Below are positions 25,727 to 33,767 of a stretch of 64,000 nucleotides of DNA, in pieces. The position numbers and the translations under genes are program-made. The stretch is from Herbiconiux aconitum (GTDB lineage: Bacteria; Actinomycetota; Actinomycetes; Actinomycetales; Microbacteriaceae): NCBI RefSeq assembly GCF_024979235.1, contig NZ_JANLCM010000002.1, forward strand, positions 434,001-498,000, in the 5' to 3' direction. Within the stretch, counting starts at the first letter, position 1; each line of letters begins with the position of its first letter. Below the pieces are notes generated by a model. That model worked only from the letters and a program-made list of their open reading frames with translations, was not told the DNA's origin and made no database searches.

Positions 25727-25821
25727 AGGGTACGCAATACCCTTCGAACGCAGCCTGAGAAGGCCACCGGATGCGATGCGGCGGCTTGAGGTGCACGCCG
25801 AGCGGCGCGCAGACTCGAACC

Positions 25822-26538
25822 ATGGAATCGCAGCTCTCCGTCGACGTCGTGTCCGTTTTCACCGACGCGGAGGGAGGTCATGGCAATCCGCTCGGACTGC
25901 TGCGGTCGTCGGCCGAGACGCGTGGCCGCGAGCAGGAGATCGCCACGGCTCTCGGGTTCAGCGAGACGGTGTTCGTCGAGGAGATCGAGGAGGGGCCGGC
26001 GCCGCACGGGCGCAGCGCGCGCATCCGCATCTTCACCCCGGCGGCAGAATTGCCGTTCGCAGGGCATCCGTGTGTGGGCACGGCCTGGTGGCTGGCCCGG
26101 GCGGGCCTCCCGGTCTGCGCGCTCCGGGTGACGGCGGGCGATGTGGCGGTGCGGTACGACGGCGAGCTCACCTGGATCACCGGCCGCGCATCCTGGGCGC
26201 CGGAATTCACCTGGCATCCGCTGGCGACGCCGGCCGAGGTCGATGCCCTCGACCCGGCCGACTTCGGTGAGGGCAAGCACTACTTCTGGGCGTGGGTCGA
26301 CGAGGGGTCGGGCCACCTGAGGTCGCGGATGTTCGCGCCCGCAATGGGCATCGCCGAAGACGAGGCCACCGGTGCTGCGGCCGTACGCATCACGGCGCAG
26401 CTGGGCCGTGACCTCGCGATCGATCAGGGTGCCGGTTCACGCATCCTCACCCGTCGTCTCGGTGGCGACGACATCGCCGTCGGTGGACGCACGGTCGAGG
26501 CGCCCTCCGTCACCGTCGACCTCACCCCGACGCACTGA
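25822..26538 (+). CDS. PhzF-family isomerase/epimerase-like protein
   Basis: A 238-residue protein, slightly short for the family (about 260-300). The opening VDVVSVFTDAEGGHGNPLG, then FSETVFVEE with the catalytic Glu, RIFTPAAELPFAGHPCVGTA, and DEATGAAAV are the conserved PhzF blocks. Family members catalyse isomerisation of small acids, but most remain uncharacterised. It is divergent from a drug-exporter operon and shares its promoter region. The ATG at 25822 has no clear SD; an in-frame ATG at 25771 would add 17 residues. The shortness is in the C-terminal half. Confidence 0.85.
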   Translation: MESQLSVDVVSVFTDAEGGHGNPLGLLRSSAETRGREQEIATALGFSETVFVEEIEEGPAPHGRSARIRIFTPAAELPFAGHPCVGTAWWLARAGLPVCALRVTAGDVAVRYDGELTWITGRASWAPEFTWHPLATPAEVDALDPADFGEGKHYFWAWVDEGSGHLRSRMFAPAMGIAEDEATGAAAVRITAQLGRDLAIDQGAGSRILTRRLGGDDIAVGGRTVEAPSVTVDLTPTH

Positions 26539-26767: not shown

Positions 26768-27946
26768 ATGAATGGTGTTTCTGGCAAGGGAACGGGCCTG
26801 TGGCTCGTCGGTGCACGTGGAAGCGTGGCCACAACTACGGCGGTGGGAATTGCCGCCCTGAGCCGCAACCTGGCGGGGCCCGTCGGCCTCACCACCGCGA
26901 GCGAGGACTTCGCCGGTGTGCCCCTCGCGGCATTCGGTGACATCGTCATCGGCGGACACGATGTCGGCACCACTCCGCTTGCCGAGAAGGCGCTCGCGCT
27001 GAGCGCTGCCGGCATGATTGACGGCGCGCTCGTCGCTGCTGTCTCCGACGACCTCACGGCCTTCGACCCCAACATCCTCCCGGTGCCCTCCGCTCCCACC
27101 CAGCAGGGCGAGATCGAGGCGCGCGCCCTGGACATCCTCGACTTCAAGGCCAAATTCGACCTCGCACACGTTGTCGTGATCGACGTGTCATCCACCGAAC
27201 CGCTGCCCGCCTACCGCAGCGAGTTCGAGGATCGTGCCCTGCTCGAGGCATCCCTCGCGACCCCCGGGGTGACTGTGCTCCCGCCGAGCTCGATCGGCGC
27301 CCTCGCGGCTGTGCAGGCCGGGGCCGCCTACGCGTGCTTCACACCCTCGACGTCGCTCAATCTGCCCGTGCTGTGGCAGTGGGCGACGGATGCCGGAATC
27401 CCCTTCGCCGGACAGGACGGCAAGACGGGCGAGACCCTGCTGCGCACGGTGCTCGCCCCGATGTTCACCTCACGCGGTATGAAGGTTCGCTCGTGGGCGG
27501 GGACCAACCTCCTCGGTGGCGGCGACGGTTCAACCCTGGCGGACCCTGAGGCGGTGCGTTCCAAGCTCGCGTCGAAGAATCGCGGCCTCCACGCCCTTCT
27601 CGGCAACGACGTCGTCGCCCCGCTGCACATCGACCACGTTCCCGACCTCGGTGACATCAAGACCGCGTGGGACCACGTGAGCGCTGAGGGTTTCCTCGGT
27701 AGCCGCGTCCTCCTTCAGACCACGTGGAGTGCCTACGACTCGATGCTCGCGGCGCCCCTCGTGATCGACCTCGCGCGCCTGCTCTCTCTCGCGCAGGCGA
27801 CCGGCGAGTCAGGCCCGATGGGCGCGGTCGGCTGCTTCTTCAAGGACCCCTGGGGCAGTGACGTCCACGCGTTCGCCGAGCAGTCGAAGGTGCTTGTGGA
27901 GTGGGCACAGCGCGTAGCGACGCGCCTGCCGGTCGGTACCCCGTAA
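26768..27946 (+). CDS. myo-Inositol-1-phosphate-synthase-like cyclase of the Ebo-type cluster
   Basis: A 392-residue protein. The Rossmann start LWLVGARGSVATTTAVG, PSTSLNLPVLWQWATDAGIPFAGQDGKTGETLL (two adjoining blocks) and SWAGTNLLGGGDG are the signatures of inositol-3-phosphate synthases, NAD-dependent enzymes that cyclise glucose-6-phosphate to inositol phosphate. It is the first gene of the cluster and its TAA overlaps the ATG of the UbiA-like gene. In known ebo clusters the cyclase position is held by a 3-dehydroquinate-synthase-like EboD; here none is present, so this enzyme probably supplies the cyclitol. Whether the product is ordinary inositol phosphate is unknown. Confidence 0.9.
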   Translation: MNGVSGKGTGLWLVGARGSVATTTAVGIAALSRNLAGPVGLTTASEDFAGVPLAAFGDIVIGGHDVGTTPLAEKALALSAAGMIDGALVAAVSDDLTAFDPNILPVPSAPTQQGEIEARALDILDFKAKFDLAHVVVIDVSSTEPLPAYRSEFEDRALLEASLATPGVTVLPPSSIGALAAVQAGAAYACFTPSTSLNLPVLWQWATDAGIPFAGQDGKTGETLLRTVLAPMFTSRGMKVRSWAGTNLLGGGDGSTLADPEAVRSKLASKNRGLHALLGNDVVAPLHIDHVPDLGDIKTAWDHVSAEGFLGSRVLLQTTWSAYDSMLAAPLVIDLARLLSLAQATGESGPMGAVGCFFKDPWGSDVHAFAEQSKVLVEWAQRVATRLPVGTP

Positions 27947-28854
27947 TGCCCCTGAGTGACTACCGGGAACTCGTGCGCGCCCCGGCGGCTTTCTCGGTGC
28001 TCGGTGACGCGATCGTGGGCGCCAGCTGGGCCGGTCGCCCCCTGCATGGTCGCGCGCTCGGCATCCCCGTGGCCTCGGTGCTCCTGTACTGGGCAGGCAT
28101 GGCGCTCAACGACCTGGCCGATGCCGACCTCGACGCGGTCGAACGGCCCGAACGCCCTATTCCCTCTGGTCGCATCACGCGCCGTGCGGCGGGGATCACC
28201 GCTGCCGTGCTCGCCGCGGGCGGGATCGCCGCGGCTGGCATCTTCGGTGGCCGCCGCTCCGTGGCCATCGCCGTGCCGCTGACGGCAGCTATCGCCACAT
28301 ACAACCTCGCCGCCAAGAATGGCCCATTCGGGCCCGTGGTGATGGCGGCCTGCCGCGGACTCGATGTGCTGATGGGCGCAGGTTCCGACCGGATGCTCGC
28401 CGCAGCGCCCGCCGCAGCGATAGTGGCAGGGCATACCGCCAATGTCACCGTGCTCTCCCGCGGTGAGGTGCACGGATCGACAAGTCGCGCCGTCGCGGGA
28501 TCGGTTGCCGCCACGGCTGCCGTCGCTCTGGCCACGGTCGCCGTGCCGGCTCCGGCCGCCGCTGCACCCGACGCGTCACTCGGCCGCACCGCCGGCGCCG
28601 TCGCAACCGCACGCTTCGGCGTCACCGTCGGGCTGCCGCAGTCGGCGGCTGCTGCTGAGCCGACCGCGGGCACCATTCGCACGGCGACGCGAGCCGGCAT
28701 CATGGGCATGATTCCCCTGCAGGCAAGTCTCGCAGCGCGTGCCGGTAACCTCGTCGCCGCGATCGCGATCGCGGGCCTGGATCTCGTACTCGAATCCCGC
28801 GCCGCCCGCGCTCGTTCTGCCCGGCAAGGTCAGGAGGGGGGCTCGATCACGTGA
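27946..28854 (+). CDS. eboC: UbiA-like prenyltransferase EboC
   Basis: A 302-residue integral membrane protein with about eight helices. The first prenyl-diphosphate motif is NDLADADLD (Asn55, Asp56, Asp59, Asp63), followed by ERPERPIPSGRI, as in UbiA enzymes. The usual second Asp-rich motif is not obvious; a segment TVLSRGEVHG stands in its place, which fits the EboC subgroup as I remember it. It would attach a prenyl chain to a cyclic acceptor in the membrane. It overlaps the cyclase gene by one base and the next isomerase gene by four, so the three are coupled. The middle and C-terminal helices are unusually Ala-rich. Confidence 0.87.
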   Translation: MPLSDYRELVRAPAAFSVLGDAIVGASWAGRPLHGRALGIPVASVLLYWAGMALNDLADADLDAVERPERPIPSGRITRRAAGITAAVLAAGGIAAAGIFGGRRSVAIAVPLTAAIATYNLAAKNGPFGPVVMAACRGLDVLMGAGSDRMLAAAPAAAIVAGHTANVTVLSRGEVHGSTSRAVAGSVAATAAVALATVAVPAPAAAAPDASLGRTAGAVATARFGVTVGLPQSAAAAEPTAGTIRTATRAGIMGMIPLQASLAARAGNLVAAIAIAGLDLVLESRAARARSARQGQEGGSIT

Positions 28855-29723
28855 TCGCCCCGCTCCCCATCCTCGGCTATGGCACCAACGGCTTCACCGA
28901 CCACACCCTCTCCGACACCCTCGACGTGCTGTCGGGCTACGGGTACGGCGCCGTAGCGCTCACACTCGGGCACCCGCACTTCGATCCCTTCGGCGACGAC
29001 TGGGAAGCCCGAGCTCGGGAGCTGCGCGACGATCTCGCCGAGCGTGGCATGCGTGTGGTCGTGGAGACCGGCGCGCGATACCTGCTCGACAAGCACGTGA
29101 AGCACCGCCCGACCCTCGTCGATGTCGACGCCGGCCGGCGCATGACCTTCCTCGCCCGCGCGATCGAGATCGCGGAGGTACTCGGTGCCGACTGCGTCTC
29201 GATGTGGTCCGGGGTCACGCCTGACGGGATGTCCGACACCGAGGCGTGGCGACTCCTGGTGGAGCGCACGGCCGACGTCGTGGCCCTCGCGTCCGTGCGT
29301 GGCGTGCGACTGGGCTTCGAGCCGGAGCCTGGCATGCGCGTCGAGACGGTCAGCGACGCGCTCGCCCTACGGTCGGAGCTCGGCGACCCCGACGCGTTCG
29401 GCATCACCGTCGACCTCGGGCACTGCGTCGCGGTGGAACCCGGCGGTGTCGCCGAAGCACTGCGCCAGGCGGGAGACCTGCTCGTCAACGTGCAGGTCGA
29501 CGACATGATGCCCGGTGTCCACGAGCACCTCGAGCTCGGCACCGGTCAGCTCGATGTCGATCTCGCGTTTCGAACGCTGAGCGAGATCGGGTACACCGGA
29601 GTTGCTGCGATCGAGCTCCCGCGGGATTCGCACGCCGCACCCCGACTGGCCAAGGAGAGCATCGCGAGGATGCAGCAGGCTCTCGACGCCATCACCCACG
29701 ATGTTGTGAGGAGTGCACGATGA
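28851..29723 (+). CDS. Extra TIM-barrel sugar phosphate isomerase/epimerase in the Ebo-type cluster
   Basis: A 290-residue xylose-isomerase-like TIM barrel. LGFEPEPGM (Glu), TVDLGHCVAVEPGG (Asp, His), NVQVDDMMPGVHEHLELGTGQ and IELPRDSHAAP carry the expected metal ligands. It starts with GTG overlapping the UbiA-like stop (GTGA) and its own stop overlaps eboA. It is distinct from the second TIM barrel of the cluster, EboE. A role in epimerising or oxidising the cyclitol or its sugar precursor is an inference from inosose-isomerase relatives. I do not recall this gene as a member of the six-gene ebo set. Confidence 0.85.
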   Translation: MIAPLPILGYGTNGFTDHTLSDTLDVLSGYGYGAVALTLGHPHFDPFGDDWEARARELRDDLAERGMRVVVETGARYLLDKHVKHRPTLVDVDAGRRMTFLARAIEIAEVLGADCVSMWSGVTPDGMSDTEAWRLLVERTADVVALASVRGVRLGFEPEPGMRVETVSDALALRSELGDPDAFGITVDLGHCVAVEPGGVAEALRQAGDLLVNVQVDDMMPGVHEHLELGTGQLDVDLAFRTLSEIGYTGVAAIELPRDSHAAPRLAKESIARMQQALDAITHDVVRSAR

Positions 29724-30337
29724 CAGCAGAGGAGTGGATGGCCCGAGCGCGCGAGGCCGTGCGCGAGAAGCCGACGGCAGCCCTCCGCTGGCTTGCTCAG
29801 GCCGGCATCGGAGTCGGTCGCGACCTCGTGGACGAGGCATCCGACCCCCACGGCCAGATCCTCGGCACGACGGCGGATGCCGCGCGCGCAGAGCTCATCG
29901 CCGTGCTGGCCGAGGCGCAGACCCCGCAGGAATTCGCGGTCTCCGTCGAGACGCTCTACGCCCAGGGAGACAACGATGTGAAGCGCGGTGTACTGCGCGG
30001 CCTGAACCTGCTCACCGAGCGGGGTGCACTCCCCGACGAGACCGTGACCGCGGGAGTCGCGTTGGTTCACGACGCCTTGCGCGCGAACGATCCGCGGCTC
30101 GTGGCATCCGGAATGGGCGCCTTCGCCGGCGCGCACCTCGACCAGGACACCTGGCGCCAGGGCGTCATCAAGCTCGTCTTCATGGACGTGCCGTTCTCGG
30201 CAGTAGCCCGGCTCGACGAGCGCCGCGACGCGGAACTCGGACGCATGGCCCGCGACCTCGTGCGCGAGCGCAGCTCCGCCGGTCGCGTCATCACCACAGA
30301 CCTCGGCACTCTCGCCGAGCCGATCGCGAAGGGATAG
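29720..30337 (+). CDS. eboA: EboA-domain protein
   Basis: A 205-residue soluble, helix-rich protein. WMARAREAVREKPTAALRWLAQAGIGVGR at the N-terminus (two blocks) and GDNDVKRGVLRGLNLL in the middle fit the EboA family, whose function is not known. No signal peptide or membrane helix is seen. The ATG overlaps the stop of the upstream isomerase gene by four bases, and eboB follows after four bases. Its steady presence in ebo clusters is what identifies it; no catalytic residues can be named. Confidence 0.85.
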   Translation: MTAEEWMARAREAVREKPTAALRWLAQAGIGVGRDLVDEASDPHGQILGTTADAARAELIAVLAEAQTPQEFAVSVETLYAQGDNDVKRGVLRGLNLLTERGALPDETVTAGVALVHDALRANDPRLVASGMGAFAGAHLDQDTWRQGVIKLVFMDVPFSAVARLDERRDAELGRMARDLVRERSSAGRVITTDLGTLAEPIAKG

Positions 30338-30341
30338 CGCG

Positions 30342-31235
30342 ATGCGCATCTTCGACCCCCACGTCCACATGTCCGCCCGGACGACGGATGACTACGAGGC
30401 CATGTACGCGGCTGGCGTTCGCGCCGTCGTCGAGCCGGCGTTCTGGCTCGGACAGCCGCGTACGGGCGTGACGTCGTTCGTCGACTACTTCGACCTCATC
30501 ACCGGGTGGGAGCGTTTCCGCGCGTCGCAGTTCGGCATCCGTCACCACGCGACGATCGGGCTGAACCCCAAGGAGGCCAACGATCCGCGCTGCCGTGAGG
30601 TGATGGCCGAGCTGCCCCGGTTCCTCGTGCGCGAATCGGTTGTCGCGATCGGCGAGACCGGCTACGACTCGATGACCGCCGCGGAGCAGGACGTGTTCGA
30701 GGAGCACATGTCGCTCGCGCTCGAGTACGAACTGCCCGTGCTCGTGCACACGCCACACCGCGACAAGCTCTCCGGCACGCAGCGCACTCTCGACGTCGTC
30801 GCGGCCTCCGGAGTTGCTCCCGAGCTCGTCGTGGTCGACCACCTCAACGAGCTGACCGTCGACATCGTTGCCGACAGCGGATGCTGGATGGGCTTTTCGA
30901 TCTACCCGGACACCAAGATGGACGAACAGCGCATGGTCGCGATCCTCCAGCGCATCGGCACTGACCGCATCCTCATCAACTCGGCGGCGGACTGGGGCCG
31001 TTCCGACGTGCTCAAGACGCTCAAGACCGGCGAACTCATGCTCGAGTCCGGGTTCACCGAGGCCGACGTCGACCGCGTGCTGTGGCAGAACCCGATCGAC
31101 TTCTACAGCCAGAGCGGACGCGTGGATGTCACGCCCCTCCCCGGGTTCGAGGCCTTCATCGCCCCACCGCTGTTCGAGGGCAACTCGGTGCAGCGCGGCG
31201 CTCCCGCGACGACGCCGGATGCGGTCCGGGCATGA
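30342..31235 (+). CDS. eboB: TatD-like metal-dependent hydrolase EboB
   Basis: A 297-residue TIM-barrel hydrolase of the TatD group. Metal ligands read as His7 and His9 (FDPHVHM), Glu105 (IGETGYD), His136/His139 (LVHTPHRD), His167 (VVDHLNE) and Asp217 (SAADWGR). TatD proteins are nucleases or hydrolases; the ebo version probably has another substrate. It lies four bases after eboA and 16 bases before eboE. The change from the usual TDxP block to SAADWG near the last ligand sets it apart from housekeeping TatD. Confidence 0.88.
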   Translation: MRIFDPHVHMSARTTDDYEAMYAAGVRAVVEPAFWLGQPRTGVTSFVDYFDLITGWERFRASQFGIRHHATIGLNPKEANDPRCREVMAELPRFLVRESVVAIGETGYDSMTAAEQDVFEEHMSLALEYELPVLVHTPHRDKLSGTQRTLDVVAASGVAPELVVVDHLNELTVDIVADSGCWMGFSIYPDTKMDEQRMVAILQRIGTDRILINSAADWGRSDVLKTLKTGELMLESGFTEADVDRVLWQNPIDFYSQSGRVDVTPLPGFEAFIAPPLFEGNSVQRGAPATTPDAVRA

Positions 31236-31251
31236 ATCGGGTACAGCCGTG

Positions 31252-32370
31252 ATGCACCTGTCGTACTGCACCAACGTGCATCCCGCCGAGGACCTCGACG
31301 GCGTGATCGCCCAGCTCAGGGAGTTCGCAGGCCCGGCGAGGCGACAGGCGGGGTTCGACACCCTCGGCGTCGGCCTGTGGCTGCCGGCGCAACTCGCGCA
31401 CGAGTTGGCCACCGATGAGTCCGCACGCGATCGACTGCGCGCCGTGCTCGACGAGCAGGGTCTCGAGGTGCGCACGCTCAACGCCTTCCCCTACGCGGCC
31501 TTCCACGCCGAGGTCGTCAAGCTCGACGTCTACCTGCCGGACTGGACCGACCCGCGGCGGCTCGAGTACACGATCGATGCCGCGCGTGCGCTTGCTGCCA
31601 TGCTGCCCGCGCGGGCAGACGGCAGTATCTCGACCCTGCCCCTCGGCTGGCGTACCGGTTGGGGGCCCGAGCAGGATGCCGCAGCCACCGAGGCGTTCGC
31701 GGTGCTCGTTGCCGCCCTCCGACAGATCCACGACACGACCGGTCACACGATCCGCATCGCTATCGAGCCGGAGCCCGGGTGCATCCTCGACAACGTCGCG
31801 GACATCGTCGACTGGCTCTCCGCGCGCACGGATGTCATCGACCCCGAGTTCGTGGGAGTGTGCCTCGACACCTGCCACCTGGCTGTTTCCTTTGCCGATC
31901 CCGTCGCCGCTGTTGCTGCCATTCACGACGCCGGGCTCACGGTCGTGAAGATCCAAGCCTCGGCCGCTCTCGAGGTTCTGACGCCGGCCGACCCCGCGTC
32001 GCGCGAGGCGATCGCCGCCTTCGCCGAGCCGCGCTACGTGCACCAGGTTCGCGAGAACCAGGGCGACCGGATACTGCGCGTCGATGACCTCGACGAGGCT
32101 CTCGCGACGCTCCCGGCCGATGGCCCGTGGCGCGTGCACTTCCACGTGCCTCTGCAGATGGTTCCGGATGCCCCGCTCTCGGCAACCACGGATGTGCTGC
32201 TCTCAGCAGTCGACGCCGTCGTCAGCTCCCGCCCGGAACACGATGTGCACGTCGACGTCGAAACCTACACCTGGTCGGTGCTGCCCGAGCCGCCGGCGGA
32301 CCTCGCAGCGGGCATCGCGAGCGAGCTCCTCTGGGCACAGCGCGAACTGATGGGAACCCGAACAGAATGA
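31252..32370 (+). CDS. eboE: Metabolite traffic protein EboE
   Basis: A 372-residue TIM barrel of the EboE family. The start MHLSYCTNVHPAEDLDGVI is characteristic, and IAIEPEPGCILDN, GVCLDTCHLAVSFADP and VKIQASAAL supply the likely metal ligands (Glu, Asp, His, Gln). YVHQVRENQGDRILRVDDL and a late VHFHVPLQM are also typical. In Nostoc punctiforme the ebo genes are needed for scytonemin precursor to reach the periplasm, hence the name; the reaction is unknown. ATG is taken as start; a GTG one codon earlier is possible. Its stop overlaps the next gene by four bases. Confidence 0.9.
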   Translation: MHLSYCTNVHPAEDLDGVIAQLREFAGPARRQAGFDTLGVGLWLPAQLAHELATDESARDRLRAVLDEQGLEVRTLNAFPYAAFHAEVVKLDVYLPDWTDPRRLEYTIDAARALAAMLPARADGSISTLPLGWRTGWGPEQDAAATEAFAVLVAALRQIHDTTGHTIRIAIEPEPGCILDNVADIVDWLSARTDVIDPEFVGVCLDTCHLAVSFADPVAAVAAIHDAGLTVVKIQASAALEVLTPADPASREAIAAFAEPRYVHQVRENQGDRILRVDDLDEALATLPADGPWRVHFHVPLQMVPDAPLSATTDVLLSAVDAVVSSRPEHDVHVDVETYTWSVLPEPPADLAAGIASELLWAQRELMGTRTE

Positions 32371-33767
32371 CCACTCGCCCGATCCTTCTTCTCGACATCG
32401 TCGGACTCACCGCCCCGATCCTGAAGAACATGCCGCGCCTCGCGGCCCTCGCGAGCAAGGGTGCACAGGCGAGCCTCGGCACGGTGCTGCCCGCGGTGAC
32501 GTGTTCTGTGCAGTCGAGCATCCTGACCGGCACGATGCCCTCCGAGCACGGCATCGTCGGCAACGGCTGGTACTTCAAGGGGCTCGGCGACATCTACCTG
32601 TGGCGCCAGCACAACAAGCTCGTGCACGGCGAGAAGATCTGGGAGACCGCTCGGCGCACGCAGCCGGGTTACCTCGCGGCCAATGTCGGCTGGTGGTACG
32701 CGATGGGTGCGACGACGGATGTCACGATCACCCCTCGCCCCATCTACCACGCGGACGGCCGCAAGTCCGCTGACGACTACGTAAGACCGCCCGCCCTGCA
32801 CGACGACCTCGAGAAGCGGCTCGGCGTGTTCCCGTTGTTCCAGTACTGGGGGCCGACTGCCACGATCACGTCGTCACAGTGGATGATCGACGCGACCCGG
32901 TACATCCTCGAGGGTGGCGGCACCGGCGGGGCGGTGCCCGAGCTCACGATGACCTACCTCCCTCACCTCGACTACGACCTGCAGCGCTTCGATCCTGAAG
33001 GCCCGGAAGCCGCGAAGGCGGCAGCAGAGTTGGACGCCGCGCTCACGCCGCTCCTCGACCAGGCCGAGGCCCAGGGCGTGACCGTCGTCGCCCTCGCGGA
33101 GTACGGTCTTTCGGCGGCCACCAAGCCCGTCGACATCAACCGCGCTCTGCGCCGCGCGGGCCTCCTGGAGGTCTACGTGCAGCAGGGCCTCGAGCAGCTG
33201 GACCCGTGGACGTCCCGCGCCTTCGCCGTTGCCGACCACCAGATCGCTCACGTCTACGTGGACGACCCCGAGGACATCCCCGCCGTCCGCGCAATCCTCG
33301 AGGCGCTCGACGGAGTGGACGAGGTGCTCGACCGCGAGGGACAGGCTCGCTACGGTCTCGACCACGAGCGTGCCGGCGACCTGGTCGCCGTCGCCGAGCC
33401 CGGTGCCTGGTTCACCTACTACTTCTGGCTGGACGACGCGAAGGCGCCGGAGTATGCGCGGGGTGTCGATATCCACCGCAAGCCCGGCTACGACCCGTCC
33501 GAGCTCTTCTTCAACCCGTCTGACCCGCTCGTGAAGGTGAAGGCTGCGGCCAACCTCGCGAAGAAGGCCGTCGGCCTGCGCTACGCGATGAACGCGATCT
33601 CCCTCGACCCGTCGATCGTCAAGGGCACCCACGGGCGCCTCCCGAGCGGCCCGGCGGACACCCCGATCATCCTGTCGTCAGACCCGACGTTTCTAGTGGG
33701 CGAGGGCGACACGGTCCCGGCAACGTCGGTGAAGGGTCTGATCCTGAAGGCGCAGGGCCTGAGGTAA
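32367..33767 (+). CDS. eboF: EboF-like type I phosphodiesterase/nucleotide pyrophosphatase
   Basis: A 466-residue alkaline-phosphatase-fold protein. Asp10 (LLLDIVGLT) and nucleophile Thr45 (LPAVTCSVQSSILTG) are in place, followed by EHGIVGNGWYF and the Asp-x-x-x-His-like YLPHLDYDLQRF. The second metal cluster normally reads DHG; here ALAEYGLS occupies that place, and a later GTHGRLP gives a His. Relatives hydrolyse phosphodiesters or pyrophosphates; as the last cluster gene it may remove a phosphate or diphosphate from the cyclitol lipid. No signal peptide, so it acts in the cytoplasm. Convergent with a DHA2 exporter 14 bases away. Confidence 0.85.
   Translation: MTTRPILLLDIVGLTAPILKNMPRLAALASKGAQASLGTVLPAVTCSVQSSILTGTMPSEHGIVGNGWYFKGLGDIYLWRQHNKLVHGEKIWETARRTQPGYLAANVGWWYAMGATTDVTITPRPIYHADGRKSADDYVRPPALHDDLEKRLGVFPLFQYWGPTATITSSQWMIDATRYILEGGGTGGAVPELTMTYLPHLDYDLQRFDPEGPEAAKAAAELDAALTPLLDQAEAQGVTVVALAEYGLSAATKPVDINRALRRAGLLEVYVQQGLEQLDPWTSRAFAVADHQIAHVYVDDPEDIPAVRAILEALDGVDEVLDREGQARYGLDHERAGDLVAVAEPGAWFTYYFWLDDAKAPEYARGVDIHRKPGYDPSELFFNPSDPLVKVKAAANLAKKAVGLRYAMNAISLDPSIVKGTHGRLPSGPADTPIILSSDPTFLVGEGDTVPATSVKGLILKAQGLR

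Follow-up and report, generated by a model that had tools for sequence, protein, structure and literature searches.

The ebo genes have been linked to the export of scytonemin precursors and to nematode repellence, and the 64,000 nt stretch of Herbiconiux aconitum DNA analysed here, termed the window (GCF_024979235.1, contig NZ_JANLCM010000002.1, positions 434,001-498,000 of the forward strand), raises the question of which cyclase can serve their pathway. On its plus strand, at 26768-33767, lies a seven-gene operon coding for a homologue of myo-inositol-1-phosphate synthase (MIPS), an EboC-like UbiA prenyltransferase, a TIM-barrel isomerase, EboA, EboB, EboE and EboF, and no EboD was found in the window by tblastn. 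In the eboABCDEF operon, EboD was described as a new sugar-phosphate cyclase, an isoprenoid-cyclitol was proposed as the product and an EboA/EboG variant was distinguished (Yurchenko et al. 2016, PMC5133447). A role in scytonemin precursor export was proposed by Klicki et al. (2018, PMC6282210). The MIPS-bearing ebo cluster is a variant of this known operon that is undescribed in the literature searched: the word 'inositol' is absent from the accessible text of Yurchenko et al. (PMC5133447), and inositol is unmentioned in that of Klicki et al. (PMC6282210) and of the paper on the flavobacterial EboC Ubi-297 (PMC9235831). The operon may well encode a version of the ebo pathway whose product has an inositol head group, a reading to which a probability of roughly 0.55 is attached.

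Organisation of the operon and census of the accompanying cyclases

The preliminary description of this locus had reported seven tightly packed genes, and their junctions and coordinates were confirmed, all on one strand (Table 1). Four junctions overlap, by one base between MIPS and EboC (27946) and by four bases between EboC and TIM (28851-28854), TIM and EboA (29720-29723) and EboE and EboF (32367-32370), and gaps of four and 16 bases separate EboA from EboB and EboB from EboE, respectively; the start codons of the seven genes are inferred. The gene set stands as it was listed, with the qualification that the extra TIM-barrel isomerase is to be counted as part of the variant. Two draws of actinobacterial genomes were used to determine which cyclase accompanies the ebo genes, and the identical seven genes recur in identical order in 16 of the 18 other loci of the phylum draw and 66 of the 76 clusters of the class draw, so the arrangement in the window is not due to chance.

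The phylum draw comprised 396 Actinomycetota genomes, 18 of which contained EboE over its cut-off, at 19 places. Beyond the window, 16 of these places (loci are designated L plus a number) encode MIPS, one encodes EboD (L059, an actinobacterial EboD-type cluster with the order D-B-E-C-F) and one encodes neither (L056). EboE was over the cut-off in 90 of the 394 genomes of the class draw; the two draws overlap, and from the latter just the 81 over-cut-off places not already covered were added and read. Seventy-six lie within an ebo cluster, 71 with MIPS, none with EboD and five with neither, three of which (L211, L242 and L243) stop at a contig end. The actinobacterial total, including the window, is 95 clusters, with MIPS in 88 (a weak match of 62 bits in L207), EboD in one and neither in six (three at contig ends). 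Left out of this total are L073 (broken frames, EboE under cut-off), L269-L275 (EboE under cut-off) and L224, L253, L256, L267 and L268 (EboE alone). The latter five encode an EboE-like protein over the NCBIfam cut-off with no further ebo gene found, the neighbours in L253 resembling, by eye, ABC transporter and 2-oxoacid dehydrogenase genes, and in L269-L275 a shorter EboE-like protein (242 of 379 positions aligned; family code f94) occurs with no adjoining ebo gene found.

The loci from other phyla, among them cyanobacteria, Bacteroidota, Chloroflexota and Acidobacteriota, are the best 80 of 581 loci to an EboE alignment whose first row is the EboD-type EboE of L059; the set is therefore not random, and some of its loci are short. 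There being no EboD model, EboD was identified by likeness to the 3-dehydroquinate (DHQ) synthase-like protein of L059, and was found in 77 of the 80 (weakly in L110, 55 bits, and L139, 74 bits), and MIPS in none. Whole-genome searches of 30 of the other-phyla genomes gave no MIPS match in 21 and one of at most 171.5 bits in the other nine. Across all 175 ebo loci, the MIPS homologue thus occupies the cyclase place in 88, EboD in 78 and neither in nine, and no locus has both. The two cyclases are mutually exclusive in the clusters read, and actinobacterial ebo clusters often bear MIPS where EboD usually stands, which upholds the placement of the MIPS homologue in the preliminary description.

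Table 1. Genes of the MIPS-bearing ebo operon in the Herbiconiux aconitum window
Product	Position	Strand	Basis
myo-inositol-1-phosphate synthase homologue (MIPS), ebo-linked subfamily, cyclase slot	26768..27946	+	Pfam PF07994/PF01658
EboC-like UbiA prenyltransferase, SCO3242 family	27946..28854	+	NF045897 over cut-off; UbiA PF01040
Xylose-isomerase-like TIM-barrel protein, typical of MIPS-type clusters	28851..29723	+	PF01261
EboA-domain protein	29720..30337	+	NF035938 over cut-off
EboB, TatD-like metallo-hydrolase	30342..31235	+	PF01026
EboE, TIM-barrel protein	31252..32370	+	NF035939 over cut-off
EboF-like type I phosphodiesterase / nucleotide pyrophosphatase	32367..33767	+	PF01663, 200.8 bits

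An ebo-linked MIPS subfamily

The window MIPS is over the cut-off for both Pfam domains (PF07994, 135 bits; PF01658, 103.8 bits) and scores 37.5 bits against TIGR03450, the mycothiol-type Ino1 model, under its cut-off of 638. Its lysines K266, K270, K298 and K359 correspond to the four catalytic lysines K274, K278, K306 and K367 of Archaeoglobus fulgidus Ino1; the structures of the variants 3qvw and 3qvx show alanine at the second and last of these. All four are conserved in 84 of 85 ebo-linked rows, and the aspartates at A. fulgidus positions 225, 261 and 332 are likewise retained in 84 of the 85. When the window MIPS was used as a query against the 396 Actinomycetota genomes, with up to four candidates scored per genome, at least 236 bits were reached in 17, every one EboE-positive, and the next genome reached 210.7 bits; no homologue of at least 236 bits was found without EboE in these genomes.

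In a first MIPS tree the ebo-linked rows are split from the mycothiol-type enzymes and Ari2 (6k96) at 100, with a support of only 53 as a group of their own. A second tree contained ebo-linked MIPS from Actinobacteria (20 rows), haloarchaea (two) and Gemmatirosa (one). Together with A. fulgidus Ino1, whose branch is long and whose place is unsure, these are split from all 16 other rows at 100/100, and the actinobacterial and haloarchaeal ebo-linked MIPS group at 95/90. The cluster MIPS is a member of a subfamily bound to ebo genes and distinct from the housekeeping enzyme. Another MIPS subfamily occurs in a cluster found in an actinobacterial genome (L076, 1601-10581) and on a Roseomonas plasmid (L291, 7986-16573), where its partners are a methyltransferase, a Gfo/Idh oxidoreductase, a YcaO protein, a TIM-barrel isomerase and a glycosyltransferase. 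The same MIPS and TIM proteins are encoded in L077-L081; 'YcaO-type' serves as a label in the MIPS trees, a YcaO gene having been seen in L076 and L291 only.

The assembly encodes a second PF01658 protein, which scores 632.7 bits to TIGR03450, just under the cut-off, and 579.7 bits to Mycobacterium tuberculosis Ino1 (1gr0), and is of the mycothiol type. With this separate, housekeeping-type inositol synthase present, the cluster MIPS is an extra copy, and the concern raised in the preliminary description that it might be the only housekeeping copy does not hold. Nor was an EboD found elsewhere in the genome, in which the only DHQ synthase found is AroB, encoded in an aroE-aroC-aroK-aroB-aroQ operon (neighbours named by eye from their translations).

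Cyclase exchange and MIPS-type clusters outside the Actinobacteria

The question of whether the MIPS-type clusters share one lineage was addressed with an EboE tree of 61 rows, 19 actinobacterial and 42 from the 80 other-phyla loci. A branch with a support of 100 sets the 17 MIPS-type rows and L056 apart from all other rows, and L059 sits among Thermomicrobiota, Acidobacteriota and Rhodothermota rows, which argues that the cyclase tracks the ebo lineage rather than the phylum. Mean identities between the MIPS-type and EboD-type proteins are 49.7% for EboB and 48.4% for EboF (samples of about 30 each).

The variant, common in Actinobacteria, had been called actinobacterial, a label that proved too narrow, as it is also carried by two haloarchaeal plasmids and one Gemmatimonadota plasmid. 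A tblastn search with MIPS matched 44 plasmid records, including 25 from Streptomyces and five from haloarchaea, of which six were opened (two Streptomyces, two haloarchaea, Roseomonas and Gemmatirosa). The plasmids of Streptomyces sp. NBC_00663 and S. camelliae carry the same seven genes as annotated. On those of Halobaculum salinum and Natronococcus sp. CG52, genes for EboB, a UbiA prenyltransferase, two TIM-barrel proteins, MIPS and EboF stand together. These haloarchaeal clusters, which were not met in the literature searched, share with the window a MIPS of the same subfamily, EboB, an EboC-like UbiA protein and EboF; unlike in the window, no EboA was found and neither of the two TIM-barrel proteins is clearly EboE. 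Upstream of the Natronococcus cluster, a short ORF (L290, 2900-3385) is 48% identical to part of EboE and is perhaps a remnant of it.

The unannotated plasmid 2 of Gemmatirosa kalamazoonensis (L292) encodes EboE (on the other strand), EboB, EboF, EboC, MIPS and the TIM protein. Its EboB is nested among EboD-type EboBs, a placement with the MIPS type being rejected by the approximately unbiased test (p-AU 1.6e-85), and its EboE and EboF attach to the branch that connects the two types. A MIPS beside an EboD-type EboB indicates that the cyclase has been swapped relative to EboB at least once.

MIPS and EboD belong to different enzyme families, and MIPS keeps the phosphate of its substrate. The cyclases of the EboD superfamily lose it (PMC5133447), and the change of cyclase is therefore not like-for-like chemistry, a correction to the preliminary description, in which both were called NAD-dependent sugar-phosphate cyclases.

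The EboC-like prenyltransferase and the putative product

The window EboC passes the cut-off (260) of NF045897, 'SCO3242 family prenyltransferase', with 309.9 bits, and is under the cut-off (250) of NF035940 EboC with 144.1, as is the EboC of the EboD-type cluster L059 (97.6). Its first Asp-rich motif, NDxxDxxxD (N55, D56, D59, D63), is present in 85/85 MIPS-type and 72/72 EboD-type rows, and E174 is invariant in 50 rows of both types. The best solved match of the EboC profile is the digeranylgeranylglyceryl phosphate (DGGGP) synthase 6m31 of Methanocaldococcus jannaschii (74.2 bits), an ether-forming enzyme that prenylates the glycerol hydroxyl of a phosphorylated lipid (PMC9385802). Prenylation in vitro has been reported for three EboD-type EboC enzymes (PMC9235831). 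In L214 (12802-15573), a single 923-codon ORF codes for both MIPS and UbiA domains, with a linker of about 200 residues, rich in repeats, between them; this is a single case and may be an assembly effect or the result of a lost stop.

Genes for a polyprenyl synthase lie within 250 bases of nine of the 94 MIPS-clade clusters, representing five family codes and three arrangements: upstream of MIPS (L055, L192, L213), after EboF (L067, L250, L189, L190, L266) or likewise after EboF but in the opposite orientation (L072). A check for PF00348 covered six of these nine genes. In one further cluster (L201) the gene stands 6 kb off. Three queries were used in the class loci and one in the other-phyla loci, where this single query revealed no polyprenyl synthase in the 80 loci. 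The conserved MIPS lysines, the likeness of EboC to DGGGP synthase, the neighbouring polyprenyl synthases and the L214 fusion together point to a prenylated inositol(-phosphate) lipid as the best guess for the product, and we infer, in line with the preliminary description, that EboC may prenylate the cyclitol to give an inositol lipid.

Among the remaining proteins, the window EboE scores 416.8 bits to NF035939 (cut-off 250), and the EboA domain 124.3 to NF035938 (cut-off 50) and 44.7 to the narrower NF035937 EboA family, under its cut-off of 320. EboA is predicted to be all-helical (mean pLDDT 97.1). The TIM isomerase is present in most MIPS-type clusters, L191, L193, L212 and L217 being without it, and gave one weak match (40 bits) in the 80 EboD-side loci. 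In five loci it is in frame with EboA with no stop between; such fusions in Actinobacteria were already remarked upon by Yurchenko et al. (PMC5133447, section 3.4.4). In the proposed pathway, the dedicated MIPS would convert glucose 6-phosphate to inositol 3-phosphate, as its conserved catalytic residues suggest, and the membrane-bound EboC-like UbiA protein would join a prenyl diphosphate to the cyclitol or a derivative thereof. The TIM-barrel isomerase, EboE and EboB may reshape the cyclitol, EboF may take off phosphate or pyrophosphate, and the predicted helical-repeat protein EboA, fused to the isomerase in some genomes, may hold the enzymes together. By analogy with scytonemin export in Nostoc, the product would be a small membrane lipid for an extracytoplasmic process.

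Genes near the clusters

Of the 93 MIPS-clade clusters, 57, from nine of 14 family codes, have a match to a pyrroloquinoline quinone (PQQ)-type sugar dehydrogenase (GSDH) no more than 4 kb away, against three of the 80 other-phyla loci. At least 567 bits are reached by 44 of these matches; the query includes PKD and CBM6 domains, on which the remaining 13 (under 280 bits) may rest. Examples are found in L061 (14599-17115, with PKD and CBM6 domains) and in the haloarchaeal L290 (13568-16231). On the two Streptomyces plasmids, a ScyD/ScyE family gene is directly upstream of MIPS (L289, 7557-8756; L293, 7680-8882), which recalls the scytonemin operon; this query also matches two f94 loci (L198, L221) and three cyanobacterial loci. 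These neighbours suggest, as a lead and not a result, that the ebo product serves a secreted oxidase. In a broader reading, ebo would be a two-domain system in which an exchangeable cyclase sets the head group of a prenyl-cyclitol lipid, the EboD version serving Bacteroidota, cyanobacteria and others and the inositol version Actinobacteria, haloarchaea and Gemmatimonadota. In the membrane, this lipid would work as a carrier for, or accept electrons from, secreted beta-propeller oxidases, namely PQQ-type sugar dehydrogenases or ScyD/ScyE in the inositol version and Scy proteins in scytonemin-making cyanobacteria; this reading is rather improbable. Just upstream of the window operon, on the same strand, is a PhzF-like gene (25771-26538).

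Alternative readings

Several observations weigh against an inositol-headed pathway, the first being that some ebo clusters lack MIPS: L056, a second ebo copy; L203, a second copy in a genome that also holds the MIPS cluster L214; L237, which has a Gfo/Idh gene there; and L073, in which EboC, A, B, E and F are encoded but neither MIPS nor the TIM protein. Inositol-phosphate synthesis is also a housekeeping reaction in Actinobacteria, and MIPS could be an accidental neighbour of the ebo genes, or could provide extra inositol for phosphatidylinositol or mycothiol, with no role in the ebo product. This is very improbable in light of the 88 MIPS-bearing clusters among 95, the mutual exclusion of the cyclases, the EboE-positive status of all 17 genomes with a close homologue and the separate mycothiol-type copy in the genome. 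Upstream of L056 (12912-15808, by Pfam) and L203 (13701-16099, by near-identical protein starts) are an FAD oxidoreductase gene and an inositol-monophosphatase-family gene. The genome of L073 (G279) contains L082 on another contig, with a MIPS-TIM pair of a different MIPS subfamily.

The second point concerns A. fulgidus position 259, which is glycine in 84 of 85 ebo MIPS and asparagine in four reference enzymes (M. tuberculosis Ino1, Ari2, the genome's own housekeeping-type enzyme and L042), A. fulgidus Ino1 itself having aspartate; the substrate may thus differ. Taken further, the ebo MIPS may no longer be an inositol synthase and could, like Ari2, cyclise a sugar phosphate to another cyclitol, which EboC would then prenylate. 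Ari2 is a MIPS-family enzyme of solved structure with another product, and the genome has a second inositol synthase. However, the ebo-MIPS profile scores 332.9 bits to A. fulgidus Ino1 and only 73.7 bits to Ari2, position 227, alanine in Ari2, is lysine in 85/85 ebo rows, and the catalytic lysines are kept in all but one row, so that loss of inositol synthesis appears unlikely.

Further points arise from EboC. Nothing among the conserved EboC columns of the 50 rows corresponds to the second Asp-rich motif of DGGGP synthase, a lack common to the EboD-type proteins as well. The four residues fixed differently in the actinobacterial EboCs do not track the cyclase elsewhere: the haloarchaeal MIPS-linked EboCs carry the EboD-type residue at all four sites and that of Gemmatirosa at one. 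By BLAST the haloarchaeal and Gemmatirosa EboCs score 133, 125 and 117 bits to the EboD type versus 105, 104 and 102 to the MIPS type. In the EboC tree they join the MIPS type with a support of only 88/85 and the Gemmatirosa protein joins the MIPS-type EboCs at 89/90, its placement with the EboD type not being rejected (p-AU 0.204); the Gemmatirosa EboC may or may not have moved together with its cyclase. In the window itself, no polyprenyl synthase and no GSDH gene was found.

Lastly, in vitro the flavobacterial EboC Ubi-297 transferred a farnesyl group to quinoline acids but not to phenols or catechols (PMC9235831), which fits an aromatic acceptor. The cyclitol might accordingly be dehydrated and aromatised, through an inosose route with isomerase or dehydratase steps by the TIM protein, and the resulting polyhydroxy-aromatic C-prenylated by EboC to a quinone-like meroterpenoid, for which BE-40644 offers a precedent (cited in PMC5133447). 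The moderate in vitro farnesylation of 1,3-dihydroxynaphthalene by EboD-type EboC (PMC9235831), the PQQ-type dehydrogenase genes near 57 of the 93 clusters and the scores of the window TIM protein to the IolE, IolO and hydroxypyruvate isomerase models are in keeping with this route. Those scores are weak, however, and far under the NCBIfam cut-offs, the seven-gene core is without an oxidoreductase, and the EboC profile is nearest to an ether-forming enzyme; an aromatic product is thus a doubtful proposition.

If MIPS works normally, the head group in Actinobacteria would be inositol, which can be labelled, and Streptomyces strains with the cluster are tractable. Replacement of EboD by a well-understood enzyme would thus provide a handle on the ebo product. 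The data further suggest that the 'SCO3242 family' prenyltransferases and the adjoining inositol synthases belong to one pathway, and annotations such as 'plain inositol synthase' or 'CDA cluster part' may therefore mislead.

Comparison with known systems

The inositol-headed operon proposed here shares with eboABCDEF (PMC5133447, PMC6282210) the EboA domain, EboB, an EboC-like UbiA protein, EboE, EboF and the logic of a prenylated cyclitol, and differs in having MIPS and an extra TIM isomerase for EboD and a UbiA protein of the SCO3242 family. The NCBIfam name points to SCO3242 of Streptomyces coelicolor, a 'putative transferase' numbered next to SCO3243, a 'myo-inositol phosphate synthase'; in the accessible part of PMC3610822 both are list entries only, under the calcium-dependent antibiotic (CDA) cluster of an expression table, with no link to ebo. 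DGGGP synthase (6m31) resembles EboC in the first Asp-rich motif and in the conserved Y119 and K124 of EboC, which are spaced as its Y125 and K130, and differs in that the match is limited to profile positions 2-149 of 289 and in its second Asp motif. Ari2 (6k96, 'five-membered-cyclitol-phosphate synthase'), which serves aristeromycin biosynthesis, is like the ebo MIPS a member of the MIPS family, with another product, and unlike it groups with the mycothiol-type enzymes.

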